This document shows, in pieces, positions 20,830 through 30,673 of a stretch of 55,204 nt of DNA. The DNA is taken from contig JARFQU010000158.1 in the NCBI GenBank assembly GCA_029287595.1, positions 1 to 55,204 on the forward strand, in the 5' to 3' direction. Numbering within the stretch: the stretch's first letter is position 1; each line of letters begins with the position of its first letter. This DNA is from Halioglobus sp. (lineage in GTDB: Bacteria > Pseudomonadota > Gammaproteobacteria > Pseudomonadales > Halieaceae). A model generated the notes under the pieces. It saw only the letters and a program-made list of their open reading frames with translations, was not told the origin of the DNA and ran no database searches. Position numbers and translations under genes: made by a program.

Positions 20830-21682
20830 TTATTTTCTGCGCGATGACCTGCGCCGCGGTGCAATGGCCCATGCTATTGACGCCGCTACGCTACTGCAGT
20901 GGGCTGATGATGCTGCCCGGCGCGCCGCGCCCGAAACGGTGTATCGGGAGAAGGAGGGCCGCAAAACGCTGCGCCTGCAGCTGCAGGGCAACTCTTTTTT
21001 CCTCAAGGACCACCGCGGTGTAGGCTGGCCGGAGATAGCCAAAAACCTGATGCAGCTGCGCCTGCCGGTGCTGGGTGCGGGCCGGGAATACCGCGCGGTG
21101 CGACTGCTGGAAACAATAGGTGTGGACACTCTGGCGGTGGCGGCTTATGCCAGCCAGGGGAGCAATCCCGCCACCCTCCATTCCATGCTGCTCACGGACG
21201 ATCTGGTGGATACCGTCAGTCTGGAGGATTATTGCGCCGATTGGCGGACGAATCCGCCGCCCTTTGCTGTGCGCATGCGCCTTACCCTCGCGCTGGCGGA
21301 CATTGCCAGGCGCATGCATGGAGCCGGCATCAACCATCGGGATTTCTATCTCTGCCACTTCCACCTGGATGAACAAAGCCTGCAGCGAGCCACCCTGCGC
21401 TGCCATGTAATCGACCTGCACCGCGCCCGGATTCGCAGGGAAATACCGCGGCGTTGGCGGGTCAAGGACCTGGCCGGCCTGTACTTCTCGGCCATGGACT
21501 GTGGCCTGACCCGGCGCGACCTGCTGCGTTTTATGCGCCACTACGAGCCCGGCGGCCTGCGCGTGGCCCTGGGTAAGCGCGCCGGCCTGTGGCGCCAGGT
21601 AGCAAGGCGTGCGCGGGCCTTGTATGTCAAGGGCCATGGTGGGTCACCGCCCGCCGTGGCGGGGCCAGACCATGGCCACTAA
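20810..21682 (+). CDS. waaP: LPS core heptose(I) kinase
   Basis: WaaP phosphorylates heptose I of the inner core, which lets divalent cations bridge neighbouring LPS molecules. The 290 residues show a protein-kinase-like fold: FFLKDHRGVGWPEIAKN near residue 64 (nucleotide-binding lysine) and the catalytic loop GINHRDFYLCHFHLD (about 176-190), typical of RfaP. Three in-frame GTG codons (20810, 20816, 20822) could each start it; all overlap the end of the preceding glycosyltransferase. It overlaps the next kinase gene by 11 bases. Confidence 0.92.
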   Translation: MSVSVADYFLRDDLRRGAMAHAIDAATLLQWADDAARRAAPETVYREKEGRKTLRLQLQGNSFFLKDHRGVGWPEIAKNLMQLRLPVLGAGREYRAVRLLETIGVDTLAVAAYASQGSNPATLHSMLLTDDLVDTVSLEDYCADWRTNPPPFAVRMRLTLALADIARRMHGAGINHRDFYLCHFHLDEQSLQRATLRCHVIDLHRARIRREIPRRWRVKDLAGLYFSAMDCGLTRRDLLRFMRHYEPGGLRVALGKRAGLWRQVARRARALYVKGHGGSPPAVAGPDHGH

Positions 21683-22442
21683 ACACCGGGTGATTCGCGG
21701 AGAGCAATGGGCGCAGGCGCTGTTGGCGCAGTTGCTGCACGCGGACCGGGATACGGGCGCGTGGATGGATGAGCATACCCATCTGCTGAAGCGCGACCGG
21801 TACAGTCAGGTGGGACTGTTGCGCCTGCAGGACAGACCCTGTTGCCTGAAATTGTATCGCTGTAAATCCCCGTGGCAGTATCTGCAGTTTGCCCTGGGTC
21901 GCGGTCGCGCGGTGAACAGTTTCGATCGCGGACACAGCCTGCGGGCCGCCGGGATTGCCGTACCTGAAGAGCTTGCTTTGCTGCGCGTGCCCGGGGGTAT
22001 GTTGCTACTTTGCTGCGCCATCGAACAGGCGGACAATCTGCAGGTACTGTGGCCCCGGGTAGATTCCCGTGCAACACGGGAGCAGATCATGGACCGTGCG
22101 GCACAGCTTCTGGCGCGTTTGCATAACGCCGGTTTTGCCCACGGGGATTGTAAATGGAGCAACTGGCTGTGGGCCCAGGGACAGCTTTATCTGGTGGACC
22201 TGGATGCCGTTTGCCAGGCAGCCGCAGGCGATCGCAGGCAGGCGCGTGACCTGGCCCGTTTTACCCTGAATGCGGAAGAGCTATCGCTACAACCGGCGCT
22301 TTACGACCTTTTCCTTGAGGGCTACCTGTCAGTCACGGGCCTGTCACGGGATGTGTTGATGCCGCCCATGCTGGTAGAACTGCAACGCCTGCGGCAGCGT
22401 CATCTGCAGCGCTACGGTGAGTCTGGCCAGCGCCTTGTTTAG
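21672..22442 (+). CDS. LPS kinase-like protein (InaA family) 1
   Basis: The ATG at 21672 gives 256 residues and an 11-base overlap with waaP; an upstream reading from 21609 lies wholly inside waaP and is less likely. It has a kinase-like fold with a catalytic loop HGDCKWSNWLW (about 157-167) and a metal-binding VDLDAV about ten residues on. It belongs with the InaA/WaaY-type small kinases found in LPS core clusters. A second sugar-phosphorylation role on the core is likely, but the acceptor is unknown. It converges with another kinase-like gene 19 bases away. Confidence 0.8.
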   Translation: MATKHRVIRGEQWAQALLAQLLHADRDTGAWMDEHTHLLKRDRYSQVGLLRLQDRPCCLKLYRCKSPWQYLQFALGRGRAVNSFDRGHSLRAAGIAVPEELALLRVPGGMLLLCCAIEQADNLQVLWPRVDSRATREQIMDRAAQLLARLHNAGFAHGDCKWSNWLWAQGQLYLVDLDAVCQAAAGDRRQARDLARFTLNAEELSLQPALYDLFLEGYLSVTGLSRDVLMPPMLVELQRLRQRHLQRYGESGQRLV

Positions 22443-22461
22443 AGTTTCCCGGGGATGTCGC

Positions 22462-23148
22462 TCATAACAGGCCCTTCTCCTCCAGTCGACGCATGGCCCA
22501 ATGGTAGGCCTCCACTGCGAGTATTTTCGCTTCCAGCCTGGACAGGTCACGCATCTGCCTGCGCCATGCGCAGAAAAATCGCATGCGATCGCGGCCGCTG
22601 AGGTCCGCCGGGAGCAGCATATTCAACTGCATCAGGTTTCTCAGTAACTGCCTGCCGGAGGGTGGGTTATAGCGCGCGGTGCGTTCGTTATCGATCAGCG
22701 CGAAATGAAAGTGCTCCCCCTGCGGTGATACCAGGATATTGCCCGGGCGCAGATCGCCGTGGATAAAGCCGGTGGCGTGCGCTCGCCCGATAAAGGTACC
22801 CAGCTCCCGCAGCAGGCGACGCCGCGCGAGTAAGTCCCGGCCCTGGCGTTGCGTCAACCTGTCGCGCAGCCAGCAGGTGACGCCATCCCCGGGTACCGTG
22901 CGGGTAAACAGGTACTCGCGACCCGCTCCCAGCTTGCCCCAGGCAACATTGGCCGGCGCGTTTATCCCCGCGCGCAACAGGGCATCGCTGTTCCTGCGCG
23001 CGCGTGTGGCGCGACTGCCCCGCAGCAGGGCTTTCAGCGATTCAGCCGGGCTGCGCGACAGGAATTCCTTGTAGTACAACTGCAACTGCGGGTTGTGGGC
23101 CACCCGCGCATAGCGGGAGCTTTGCACCAGTAGCCAGCCTGGCGGCAA
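22462..23148 (-). CDS. LPS kinase-like protein (InaA family) 2
   Basis: A 228-residue kinase-like protein with a clear catalytic loop HGDLRPGNILV (about 134-144) and metal motif LIDNERT. The family is the same broad one as the two kinases on the other strand, but sequence similarity to them is low. The start is uncertain: TTG at 23148 is the only canonical codon near the expected N-terminus, while the frame stays open upstream for about 35 codons with no ATG or GTG. It is divergent from rmlD with about 158 bases between. The acceptor sugar is unknown; Kdo or core heptose are both possible. Confidence 0.75.
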   Translation of the reverse strand: MPPGWLLVQSSRYARVAHNPQLQLYYKEFLSRSPAESLKALLRGSRATRARRNSDALLRAGINAPANVAWGKLGAGREYLFTRTVPGDGVTCWLRDRLTQRQGRDLLARRRLLRELGTFIGRAHATGFIHGDLRPGNILVSPQGEHFHFALIDNERTARYNPPSGRQLLRNLMQLNMLLPADLSGRDRMRFFCAWRRQMRDLSRLEAKILAVEAYHWAMRRLEEKGLL

Positions 23149-26837: not shown

Positions 26838-26954
26838 CACCGGGCGCTTCGCCGCGTGTCTTCGTTTGCGTCCGCTATACGGCGGCATTACATGCCACGT
26901 GCGCGCCAACCCCGTGTACTTCTCACCCACCGAGACTGACAGAGGACGCCTACC

Positions 26955-28280
26955 ATCAGGCACCTTGATACTTTACAGGGCAATGACCAGCCCCTGGCCG
27001 CTGCGGCCTCGCTGGACGCGGGTGTCTCGCCGGGCCCGGAGGTTCAACCACCCCTGCGTATTGCCCTGCTGGGATACCGCAGTCAGCCCTACGGTGGCGG
27101 CCAGGGCGTGTATCTGCGGTACCTGAGCAAAGCGCTGGTGGAGGCGGGTCACTCGGTGGATGTGATTTCCGGCCCGCCGTATCCTCACCTCGATCCCCGG
27201 GTACGTCTTGTCGAACTGCCCAGCCTGGACCTGTTCGCGAATGGCCTGCTGTCGCTGCGACCGCGCCACCTGAAGTCCATGACCAATATTATCGAGTGGA
27301 CCAGCAAGCTGACCGGTGGTTTTGCCGAGCCCTATACCTTTGGTCGCCGGGCGGTAAAATACCTGCGCGGCCACCGTGGTGAATACGACCTGATCCACGA
27401 TAACCAGAGCCTCAGCTACGGTATGCTGGAAATCCAGGATATGGGCGTGCCCCTGGTAACCACTTTGCACCATCCCATTACCAGCGACCTGCGCATCGCC
27501 CTCAATGCCGCGCGCAATGCCTGGGAGCGCTTGCTGATACGCCGCTGGCACTCCTTCCTCAATATGCAGAAAAAGGTGGCGCGGCAATTACACCATATCG
27601 TCACGGTATCGGACTGTTCGCGCCAGGACATTGCCCGGGATTTCGGCCTGCAGCCCGCGGGTATCAGCCTGGTGCACAATGGTATCGATACCGGGGTATT
27701 CCGCCCCCTGCCCGGGGTAACCCGCAAGCCCATGCGTCTGATGACCACCTGTTCCGCCGATGCCCCGCTAAAGGGCCTGCGCTATCTGTTGCGCGCCTAT
27801 GCCGATCTGTTGTCGGAGTTCCCCGAGTTGGAGCTGCTGGTGGTCGGTACGCCGCGGCCGGGGGGACATACCGAGAAATTGTTAGCCAGGCTGGGCATAG
27901 CTGACAAGGTACAGTTCGTTGCCGGTATCAGCACCGAACAGATGGTCCACTATTATGCGCAAGCCACAATTGCTGTGGTGCCTTCAGTCTATGAGGGCTT
28001 TGGCCTCCCCGCGGGAGAGGCCATGGCCTGCGCTGTGCCGGTGATTTCTACAGACGGTGGCGCGCTTCCCGAGGTGGTTGGCGATGCGGGGCTGATCGTG
28101 CCGGTGAAAGACGCCGCTGCCCTGTCCGCGGCGATCAGTGCATTGCTGCGCGACCCGGTGCAGCAGCGTGAGCTGGGTGCACGAGGCCAGCAGCGAATTG
28201 CCGAAAGTTTCTGCTGGCATGTCTGCGCGCGCCAGATGAGCGACTACTACCGGGAGGTGATTGCAGATGCAAACGGTTGA
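26955..28280 (+). CDS. GT4 glycosyltransferase with atypical start
   Basis: A GT-B retaining glycosyltransferase, cytosolic or membrane-peripheral. The conserved N-terminal strand and glycine loop (LRIALLGYRSQPYGGGQGVY) are encoded from about 27052, and the C-terminal domain has SVYEGFGLPAGEAMACAVPV with the paired glutamates. The only canonical start, GTG at 27108, would delete that N-terminal strand. In frame upstream there is a stop at 26937-26939 and no ATG, GTG or TTG in between; an ATC at 26955 sits eight bases after AGAGGA. I therefore propose an ATC start giving 441 residues; a point change of a former ATG is equally possible. The methyltransferase start overlaps its end. The sugar and acceptor are unknown. 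Confidence 0.8.
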   Translation: MRHLDTLQGNDQPLAAAASLDAGVSPGPEVQPPLRIALLGYRSQPYGGGQGVYLRYLSKALVEAGHSVDVISGPPYPHLDPRVRLVELPSLDLFANGLLSLRPRHLKSMTNIIEWTSKLTGGFAEPYTFGRRAVKYLRGHRGEYDLIHDNQSLSYGMLEIQDMGVPLVTTLHHPITSDLRIALNAARNAWERLLIRRWHSFLNMQKKVARQLHHIVTVSDCSRQDIARDFGLQPAGISLVHNGIDTGVFRPLPGVTRKPMRLMTTCSADAPLKGLRYLLRAYADLLSEFPELELLVVGTPRPGGHTEKLLARLGIADKVQFVAGISTEQMVHYYAQATIAVVPSVYEGFGLPAGEAMACAVPVISTDGGALPEVVGDAGLIVPVKDAAALSAAISALLRDPVQQRELGARGQQRIAESFCWHVCARQMSDYYREVIADANG

Positions 28281-28983
28281 CTTCAAACACTTTCCCCTGG
28301 ATTCCGGCGACCTGGTGCTGGATCTGGGCTGCGGTGAGGGCAGGCATGTCATATCCGCTTATGTGGCGGCAGATGTGCACTCCGTGGGGGTGGACCTGTC
28401 CCTGGATGACCTGAAGACCACCCGGGAAAAGTTTTCCGATTTTGCCGAGCCCGAGTGCGACCACAAGTCCTTTGGACTGTCCTCTGCCAACGCCCTGGAG
28501 TTGCCCTTTGCGGACAACACCTTCGACAAGGTGATTTGCAGTGAAGTGCTGGAGCATATACCCGATTACGCGGGCGCCCTGCGGGAAATTCAGCGTGTAT
28601 TGAGGCCCGGCGGGCTGTTTTGTGCCAGTGTGCCCAGGCGCTGGCCGGAAAAAATCTGTTGGGCACTCAGTGACGAGTATTACCAGGTACCCGGAGGTCA
28701 TCTGCGTATATTTCGCAGCGATGAGTTGCGCGGCGAGATCGAACAGCTGGGCTTCAGTCACTACTACCGGCACTGGGCGCACGCCCTGCACGCCCCCTTC
28801 TGGTGGTTGCAGTGCCTGTTCTGGAAAAATCGCGACAGCAACTGGCTGGTGGCCCAATACCACCGGCTGTTGGTGTGGGACCTGATGGAAAATCCAGCCC
28901 TCACGCGGATATTGGAGAAATGCATGAATCCCATCGTGGGTAAGAGCGTGGTGATGTACTTTCGCAAGGAGGCGGCGGCGTGA
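28267..28983 (+). CDS. Class I SAM-dependent methyltransferase 1
   Basis: The ATG at 28267, eight bases after GGGAGG, gives 238 residues; the TTG six bases upstream is less likely. The Rossmann methyltransferase fold shows motif I VLDLGCGEGRH (about 17-27), the acidic residue at GVDLS, ALELPFADNTFDKVICSEVLEHI (motifs II/post II) and LRPGGLF. This is the UbiE/Methyltransf_11 type. It overlaps the glycosyltransferase before it by 14 bases and the next gene by four bases (GTGA), so these three are one operon. The substrate is unknown, plausibly a sugar or lipid intermediate made by its neighbours. Confidence 0.88.
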   Translation: MQTVDFKHFPLDSGDLVLDLGCGEGRHVISAYVAADVHSVGVDLSLDDLKTTREKFSDFAEPECDHKSFGLSSANALELPFADNTFDKVICSEVLEHIPDYAGALREIQRVLRPGGLFCASVPRRWPEKICWALSDEYYQVPGGHLRIFRSDELRGEIEQLGFSHYYRHWAHALHAPFWWLQCLFWKNRDSNWLVAQYHRLLVWDLMENPALTRILEKCMNPIVGKSVVMYFRKEAAA

Positions 28984-30050
28984 GCGGCTTATACCTGAGC
29001 CGGGGCCTGTTCCCCGAAGAGTTCCTGCGACCCACGGTCAACTTCATCCTGGACTGTCAATTGGCCAGCGGGGAAATCCCCTGGTTTGAGGGAGGTTACG
29101 CCGATCCCTGGGATCACACCGAAGCCGCTATGGGCCTGGCTGTGGGGGGCGAGTTGGAAGCGGCGCGCCGGGCCTACCGCTGGCTGGCCAGCATGCAATT
29201 GCCGGACGGCAGCTGGTGGGCATCCTACCGCGGGAATGAGGTGGACAATCCGCAGCGTCGAGAGAGCAACTTTATCGCCTATATTGCGACGGGCCTGTGG
29301 CACTACTATCTGATCAGCGAGGATCGCGAATTCCTGCTGGAAATGTGGCCCATGGTCGATCGGGCCATTGATTTTGTGCTGGAACTACAGACCAGCCATG
29401 GGGATATTCACTGGGCGGTCGACGCCCGGGGCAAGGCAGAAGAAGATGCCCTGGTGACCGGCTGCAGTTCCATTTACAAAAGCCTGGAGTGTGCCCATAA
29501 CCTTGCGCTCACGTTGGACCAGTCGCGTCCCGAGTGGTTATTGGCGCGGGAGCGACTGGGTGCTGCACTGCGTCACAAGCCCGAGCGCTTCGACCGTACC
29601 TGGGAGAGTAAATCGCGCTATTCCATGGACTGGTTCTACCCGGTGCTGGCGGGAGTGTTTCCCCATCCGGAGGCGAAGGCCCGCCTGGCGGCGCGCTGGG
29701 ATGAATTCGTAAAGCCCGGTATGGGCTGCCTTTGTGTGAGCGACCAGCCCTGGGTGACGGTGGCGGAATCCTGTGAACTGGTAATGGCGTTGTTGGCAGC
29801 GGGAGATCACGCCAGAGCGGTGGAAGTTTACAGTTGGCTGCACCAGTGGCGCACCAGCGATGGTTCTTACTGGACGGGCTACCAGATGGTTGAAGATCTG
29901 CTGTGGCCGGACGAAAAACCTACCTGGACCGCAGGCGCGATCCTGCTGGCGGCGGATGCCCTGACGCAATACACGCCAGCCGCTGAACTGTTCTGTAGCG
30001 TAACAATTATCGACCCCGGTGCCCGGCAGCGACACCGGCTGGTGGACTGA
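28980..30050 (+). CDS. Prenyltransferase/terpene-cyclase-fold protein
   Basis: The protein has 356 residues and starts at a GTG overlapping the methyltransferase TGA. It has repeated helix-pair units with glycine-tryptophan turns: QLASGEIPWFEGGYADPW (about 27-44), MQLPDGSWWASYRG (about 72-85), HGDIHWAVD and TSDGSYWTGYQ. This is the alpha/alpha-barrel plan of prenyltransferase/squalene-cyclase-like and some glycosidase families. From memory, similar proteins are annotated simply as prenyltransferase in actinobacteria, often beside GT4 and methyltransferase genes. I see no DxDD cyclase motif and no clear zinc site, so catalytic type is open: a glycan-processing enzyme is as likely as a prenyl enzyme. 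No signal peptide. Confidence 0.7.
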   Translation: MSGLYLSRGLFPEEFLRPTVNFILDCQLASGEIPWFEGGYADPWDHTEAAMGLAVGGELEAARRAYRWLASMQLPDGSWWASYRGNEVDNPQRRESNFIAYIATGLWHYYLISEDREFLLEMWPMVDRAIDFVLELQTSHGDIHWAVDARGKAEEDALVTGCSSIYKSLECAHNLALTLDQSRPEWLLARERLGAALRHKPERFDRTWESKSRYSMDWFYPVLAGVFPHPEAKARLAARWDEFVKPGMGCLCVSDQPWVTVAESCELVMALLAAGDHARAVEVYSWLHQWRTSDGSYWTGYQMVEDLLWPDEKPTWTAGAILLAADALTQYTPAAELFCSVTIIDPGARQRHRLVD

Positions 30051-30055
30051 ACTTG

Positions 30056-30673
30056 CTATAAGCGTCGCATCAGTCCCAGGCTGTTGACCTGGCCCAGATC
30101 CGCAAACAGCCCTGAAGCCAGCGCCATGCGATAAATCGCATAGGGCGCCTGTCCGCCCTCACAGGCATCGGCGAACAGGTCGTGAATGGCCAGGATGCCA
30201 CCGCGCATCACGTGGGTAGCCCAGCAGCGATAATCTTCCAGGGCGGCATCCAGGCTGTGGCCGCCATCGATGAAGACCATGGCCAGGGGGGTCTGCCACT
30301 GCCTGGAGGTCGTCGCAGAGTCCGCCACCAGCGGTACCACGATATCGTCCAGTCCAGCGGCGTGGATGTTGCGCCGGAACTCCCGGAACGTGTCCATCAC
30401 CCCCTCGCCTGGATCGTACAGGTCGGGATCGTGAAAAAACTCCCCACGCTGGTGTTCTTCCGAGCCTCGGTGATGATCCAGGGCGAACACCGTAGCGCCC
30501 TGTTCCCGGCAGGCAAGTCCCAGGTAGATGGTGCTCTTGCCACAATAACTACCGATTTCCAGCACCGGGCCCATGGCGCAGGCCTGCCGAGCGTACTGGT
30601 ACAGTGCCTGGGCCTCATCATCGGCGAGGAAGCCCTTGATCTGGTCAATATTGTCTGGCAGTCCGGCAATCAT
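30056..30673 (-). CDS. Class I SAM-dependent methyltransferase 2
   Basis: A 205-residue protein of the Methyltransf_24 type. Motif I is PVLEIGSYCGKSTIYLGLA (about 36-54), then FALDHHRGSEEHQRGEF and VFIDGGHSLDAALEDY, with a late GGILAIHDLF. The start at ATG 30673 (MIAGLPDN) fits the fold; the frame stays open for another 400 codons upstream, but that part is antisense to hldE and its control region and is rejected. It converges with the prenyltransferase-like gene, five bases between stops, and likely belongs to the same functional group. The substrate is not known. Confidence 0.85.
   Translation of the reverse strand: MIAGLPDNIDQIKGFLADDEAQALYQYARQACAMGPVLEIGSYCGKSTIYLGLACREQGATVFALDHHRGSEEHQRGEFFHDPDLYDPGEGVMDTFREFRRNIHAAGLDDIVVPLVADSATTSRQWQTPLAMVFIDGGHSLDAALEDYRCWATHVMRGGILAIHDLFADACEGGQAPYAIYRMALASGLFADLGQVNSLGLMRRL

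Follow-up and report, generated by a model that had tools for sequence, protein, structure and literature searches.

A gene cluster with a probable role in methylmannose polysaccharide synthesis and recycling in a Halieaceae gammaproteobacterium

Methylmannose polysaccharide (MMP) consists of 11–14 α-(1→4)-linked mannoses, nearly all of them 3-O-methylated (PMC9883506). The hydrolase MmpH cleaves MMP internally, its fragments serve as primers for new chains that the mannosyltransferase ManT builds, and the methyltransferase MeT1 caps those with free ends (PMC9883506). The locus tags run in the order ManT, pMeT3, MmpH, MeT1 in Mycolicibacterium hassiacum and Mycobacterium avium, and the M. smegmatis tags as printed place MeT1 (6482) between MmpH (6481) and pMeT3 (6483) (PMC9883506). 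The cluster search in that paper extended to mycobacteria, eight related actinobacterial species and Hoyosella, and its main text does not contain the words 'proteobacteria', 'Gram-negative' or 'horizontal' (PMC9883506). So far MMP has been treated as a curiosity of mycobacteria and Streptomyces (PMC9883506, PMC2674218). Here we describe a four-gene cluster in contig JARFQU010000158.1 of Halioglobus sp. (assembly GCA_029287595.1), a 55,204-nucleotide stretch referred to as the window. The cluster very probably encodes the biosynthesis and recycling of an intracellular, mycobacterial-type MMP in a Halieaceae gammaproteobacterium. The four genes are:

26955–28280, plus strand: manT, glycosyltransferase family 4 (GT4), 441 amino acids with the ATC at 26955 as start
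28267–28983, plus strand: pMeT3, putative S-adenosylmethionine-dependent 3-O-methyltransferase, Pfam Methyltransf_11
28980–30050, plus strand: mmpH, 356 amino acids, α/α barrel, match to PDB 7QSJ
30056–30673, minus strand: meT1, a second, unlike methyltransferase, Methyltransf_24, match to PDB 6G7D/6G80/6H40

The plus-strand genes overlap by 14 bases (manT/pMeT3) and 4 bases (pMeT3/mmpH), and meT1 is convergent to mmpH across a gap of 5 bases. This is the layout described in the initial annotation, which was made from the window's letters and recognized a glycosyltransferase and two unlike methyltransferases in three overlapping plus-strand genes and one convergent gene.

Three of the four products match solved enzymes. 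ManT matches 7QSG with E = 7e-108 and 46.3% identity (186/402 columns), and MmpH matches 7QSJ with E = 6e-100 and 49.4% identity (161/326 columns). These entries were deposited as ManT (7QSG) and MmpH (7QSJ) of M. hassiacum (PMC9883506); 7QSG carries another enzyme's name in the PDB copy. By sequence, manT encodes the predicted orthologue of the GT4 α-(1→4)-mannosyltransferase and mmpH that of the MMP hydrolase, an α-(1→4)-endomannosidase. Residues 8–202 of the meT1 product match 6G7D, 6G80 and 6H40 (E = 7e-55), which are labeled 'Methyltransferase domain protein' in the PDB copy and which we take to be M. hassiacum MeT1. The gene is the predicted orthologue of the MMP 1-O-methyltransferase, and its match to 6G7D ruled out an assignment of the minus-strand methyltransferase as MeT3. 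The Methyltransf_11 gene pMeT3 is flanked by manT and mmpH, the arrangement of M. hassiacum, M. avium and the actinobacterial loci; it has no solved orthologue, and its best PDB match is 3BUS (E = 2.5e-16). Rv0224c and Rv0225 were considered as a lead and dropped, because neither tag turned up in the papers listed by a search of the open-access literature.

The fold of MmpH agrees with its sequence match. An AlphaFold model of the window protein (pLDDT = 94.4) has 7QSJ as its top fold match (TM-score 0.91–0.94, E = 3.7e-34), and the next entry follows at E = 9e-9. No Pfam family scores over the cut-off for the 356-residue protein. A prenyltransferase was rejected at 17.3 bits for PF00432 against a cut-off of 26.5, a terpene cyclase was rejected with the first terpene synthase at rank 34 of the fold search (E = 4.5e-7), and matches to GH95 and GH15 are weak or under the cut-off. 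The initial annotation had called this protein a prenyltransferase-fold α/α barrel and had named GH15 and terpene cyclases for structural comparison. The α/α barrel of glycosidase kind is retained, and the 7QSJ match in sequence and fold places it among the glycoside hydrolases and not the prenyltransferases; the terpene synthase and GH15 leads were not borne out. The initial annotation named no characterized pathway for the gene set, but the MMP pathway is characterized (PMC9883506).

Residue conservation was determined for MmpH and ManT across 109 distinct four-gene clusters (145 loci, of which 116 passed length filters and 7 were then dropped as duplicates), with residue roles taken from PMC9883506. 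MmpH D47, W49, M215, Y219, E262 and E265 are invariant in 109/109 clusters, and the window protein has all three of D47, D50 and E262. The less constant MmpH sites are N101 (106 of 109), F102 (93), T163 (97) and W315 (108). The GT-B residues G15, H142, K240, E313 and E321 of ManT, together with G16, G314 and F315, are also invariant in all 109 clusters, the window included, and L317 is kept in 87. GDP-mannose pyrophosphorylase was found in 7/7 carriers, over the cut-off in 6 of them, and is present in the window's genome.

The four-gene set is not a chance assembly, because three members match solved enzymes of one pathway (E = 1e-54 or better) and because 119 of the 145 loci examined, a count that takes in duplicates and contig-edge cases, keep the gene order. 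It is the coherent set that the initial annotation had proposed.

MmpH is near-universal in the family and patchy beyond it. Counting the window's own genome at each level, MmpH was found in 129/140 Halieaceae genomes (75 of the 78 good ones), in 114/390 genomes of the order (96 of the 114 in 20 other families), and in 8/321 class-sample and 5/349 phylum-sample genomes, both samples being small. The matches listed include Gammaproteobacteria, Alphaproteobacteria, Desulfobacterota, SAR324 and Actinobacteria, and the named Halieaceae records are Pseudohalioglobus lutimaris, Seongchinamella sediminis and HTCC2148. A named scan confirmed 573 of 590 stretches, 80 of which were listed, and gives no frequencies; with Nonomuraea included there are 81 named loci, on which the flank analyses rest. 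The order manT, pMeT3, mmpH with convergent meT1 is present in 31/39 gammaproteobacterial, 23/25 alphaproteobacterial, 3/3 unspecified Pseudomonadota, 7/8 actinobacterial, 0/5 Desulfobacterota and 0/1 SAR324 named loci, some of those without the full order being contig ends. The wide and patchy spread, actinobacteria included, that the initial annotation had given for similar sets was recovered, and the neighborhood is conserved beyond close relatives. The Nonomuraea locus (L067, NZ_LT559118.1) lies on an 11.85-Mb record entered as 'plasmid I' in PLSDB that by its size looks like the chromosome.

MmpH and MeT1 are inherited together. Among the 390 genomes of the order, 112 have both genes, 2 have MmpH alone, 1 has MeT1 alone and 275 have neither (Fisher p = 4.5e-95, not corrected for descent). 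One of the two MmpH-only genomes has its MeT1 cut by a contig end and the other is 70% complete, and the MeT1 of the single MeT1-only genome is at a contig edge. In a number of genomes MeT1 is tens of kilobases away from MmpH or on another contig, so the co-occurrence is not mere linkage. The five proteobacterial genomes tested that have no MeT1 beside MmpH all carry it elsewhere. In Desulfobacterota the two genes are at separate places in 5/5 genomes (L124, L130, L134, L143 and L148; L222–L226), which overturned an earlier reading of these five loci as a lone MmpH.

A tree of the 109 concatenated clusters was built with FastTree. All 7 actinobacterial rows group in one clade (support 1.0) on a long branch beside the Alphaproteobacteria, four deep gammaproteobacterial rows (L107, L212, L213 and L214) are outside the main gammaproteobacterial group, and the base is weakly supported (0.585–0.668). 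The mycobacterial cluster was set aside as a recent donor: the tree is unrooted, its basal support is weak and no direction of transfer can be read from it. The SAR324 cluster (L117) falls inside the gammaproteobacterial group, which suggests transfer. At this locus MeT1 and an acetyltransferase are upstream of manT.

If the cluster works as proposed for its mycobacterial counterpart (PMC9883506), MmpH would cut a pre-existing chain into two oligomannosides and ManT would extend the fragments with α-(1→4)-mannose from GDP-mannose. MeT1 would cap free reducing ends at O-1, and pMeT3 would presumably methylate O-3 of the added mannoses. Such a cut-and-extend cycle implies that each MMP chain is primed by an older one.

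The role of MMP in these hosts may not be the one studied in mycobacteria. Both MMP and the mycobacterial 6-O-methylglucose lipopolysaccharide (MGLP) bind acyl chains and regulate type I fatty acid synthase (FAS-I) in vitro (PMC2674218). None of 7 proteobacterial carriers showed the FAS-I domain PF08354, which among 14 controls was seen in Corynebacterium glutamicum alone. Tuning of FAS-I is an unlikely role for MMP in Proteobacteria because no carrier tested had the marker, and marine-type isolates that seem to lack FAS-I offer, in place of mycobacteria, a way to test that role by exclusion. An MMP-negative M. smegmatis mutant grows more slowly at 15 degrees (PMC9883506), and the remaining published ideas for function are long-chain acyl-coenzyme A handling and cold adaptation.

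A fifth gene tracks the cluster. It encodes a hexapeptide-repeat acyltransferase (Pfam Hexapep) whose nearest solved relatives are galactoside and maltose O-acetyltransferases:

L232:1489–2211, and C45:13662–14372 (43%) in the window's genome: O-acetyltransferase gene, unlinked to the cluster in the window's genome

An acetyltransferase is near the cluster in 6/39 gammaproteobacterial and 1/1 SAR324 flanks and directly downstream of MmpH in 5/5 Desulfobacterota. None was seen in the flanks of 25 alphaproteobacterial, 8 actinobacterial and 3 unspecified Pseudomonadota loci, among which there is no Streptomyces. A full-length relative is present in 9/9 gammaproteobacterial genomes tested, the window's included, and none was found in the single alphaproteobacterium tested (best E = 1e-14). 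Across 361 genomes of the order, all 103 matches at E = 2e-41 or better are in genomes bearing MmpH or MeT1. A second class of 11 matches (E = 2e-24 to 5e-21) includes one in a carrier (G414, a contig-edge fragment). Twelve of 115 carriers have no strong match; some of these are probably outside the 361-genome sample and others may be truly negative. Streptomyces griseus makes acetylated MMP (AMMP) (Harris and Gray 1977, cited in PMC9883506), which is the reason for considering the fifth gene as an MMP O-acetyltransferase. That assignment is a plain guess from co-occurrence with descent uncontrolled, and it offers a concrete candidate for MMP acetylation.

The manT gene appears to start at ATC. 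No ATG, GTG or TTG occurs between the in-frame stop at 26937–26939 and position 27108, which is codon 52 of the proposed frame. The start region contains:

26942–26946, plus strand: Shine-Dalgarno-like GAGGA, 8 bases upstream of the ATC
26955–26957, plus strand: proposed non-canonical manT start codon ATC, with no canonical start available, conserved in Halieaceae

The RHLDT codons after the ATC are conserved. At the start place of 51 Halieaceae manT genes there are 32 ATC, 7 ATT and 1 GTG codons, a count that is not independent of the start motif, which was located by its isoleucine (or valine); the other 11 genes do not have the motif, and several of these have an ATG nearby. A Shine-Dalgarno-like stretch is 4–12 bases upstream in 37 of the 40 loci with the motif. 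Many Halieaceae manT genes hold another GTG, TTG or ATG in the open frame, and only five (the window, L099, L103, L136 and L216) have no canonical start up to the conserved YRS. Rare AUU starts occur in infC and pcnB. If true, an AUC/AUU start conserved in one gene across a family would be a rare instance in which the start codon itself might control translation.

Several observations weigh against assigning the cluster to MMP. The polymer in Halieaceae is predicted from the genes, and pMeT3 is assigned by its position alone and is 'putative' in mycobacteria as well. MmpH residue 50 is D in 81/109 clusters and N in 28/109. ManT D293 is inferred to contact guanine. The window has T at this position; the residue is D in 7/7 actinobacterial rows and 8/102 others and most often T in Gammaproteobacteria, so residue 293 leaves the specificity for GDP unconfirmed. 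In Desulfobacterota, ManT and pMeT3 adjoin MeT1 in 2/5 genomes (L222 and L226 only) and were not seen beside it in the other 3, although a genome-wide search was not made; one of these three MeT1 flanks is full-length and shows neither gene. The hldE or waaA genes near a few non-Halieaceae clusters leave some room for a role in the envelope.

These enzymes could be true relatives that make a different intracellular methylated oligosaccharide, with another hexose, donor or linkage, by the same cut-and-extend logic. The variation at ManT 293 outside actinobacteria and at MmpH D50, the identity of only 46–49% to mycobacterial ManT and MmpH, and the co-inherited acetyltransferase all fit this explanation. 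It is nevertheless unlikely: the tested catalytic residues and most MmpH glycerol-site residues are conserved, and MmpH and MeT1 are retained together even when unlinked.

A second alternative, offered in the initial annotation, is that the cluster modifies a surface glycan containing rhamnose or heptose. The cluster is indeed between the rml genes on one side and, on the other, a gene that, like hldE, joins a PfkB domain to a cytidylyltransferase domain. Two kinase-like open frames beside the rml genes (21609–23148; HGD motifs by eye) are possibly lipopolysaccharide core kinases. Flanks of 4 kb were compared for the 81 named loci. Of these loci, 15 have rmlA and 15 have rmlC, all of them Halieaceae by title or tree position, and these neighbors look like a family trait. 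The best support for a surface glycan comes from hldE, near 9 loci, and waaA, near 9 loci of which one is Spongiibacteraceae. Three of the hldE loci are outside Halieaceae:

L107, L131 and L114: hldE-like neighbors outside Halieaceae (two SAR86 loci and Oceanicoccus)

On these flank counts, and despite the few recurrences outside Halieaceae, the rml/hldE context was set aside as the key to function and the surface-glycan link was judged very improbable: the rml neighbors were seen only in Halieaceae, the flanks of most named loci contain neither rmlA nor hldE, the solved enzymes matched by ManT and MmpH work on mannose chains, and there is no exporter among the four genes.

With an MMP pathway as the preferred explanation, MMP is probably not peculiar to mycobacteria. 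A broader account is about evenly poised between right and wrong. In this account MMP would be a widespread intracellular proteobacterial polymer, near-core in Halieaceae, present also in Desulfobacterota and SAR324, and apparently retained mostly by descent. In many of these diderm hosts it would be made by five genes in acetylated form, would be self-primed and would serve something other than FAS-I, and manT would be throttled by its AUC/AUU start in Halieaceae. No report of MMP or its genes in Proteobacteria was found among the open-access papers listed, a search that did not cover subscription papers and preprints; the 1-O-methylmannose in PMC6520443 is an assay sugar there. The pathway is already known; what appears to be new is its hosts, the fifth gene and the start codon.

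Among described systems, MGLP is likewise an intracellular polymethylated polysaccharide (PMC9883506, PMC2674218), and its sugar and enzymes differ from those of MMP according to the literature. Acetylation may be shared with the AMMP of S. griseus, provided that the polymer is the substrate of the fifth gene's product. The closest system is the MMP cluster of nontuberculous mycobacteria (M. hassiacum MHAS_04402–04405). The present host differs in being a Gram-negative proteobacterium in which the FAS-I marker was not found. ManT and MmpH have diverged to 46–49% identity with ManT D293 replaced, manT seems to be ATC-started, and the co-inherited O-acetyltransferase is elsewhere in the genome. 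The two clusters nonetheless have three enzymes alike by sequence and a fourth by place. The genes keep the order of the M. hassiacum and M. avium locus tags, MmpH and ManT keep their catalytic residues, and MmpH also keeps its fold.

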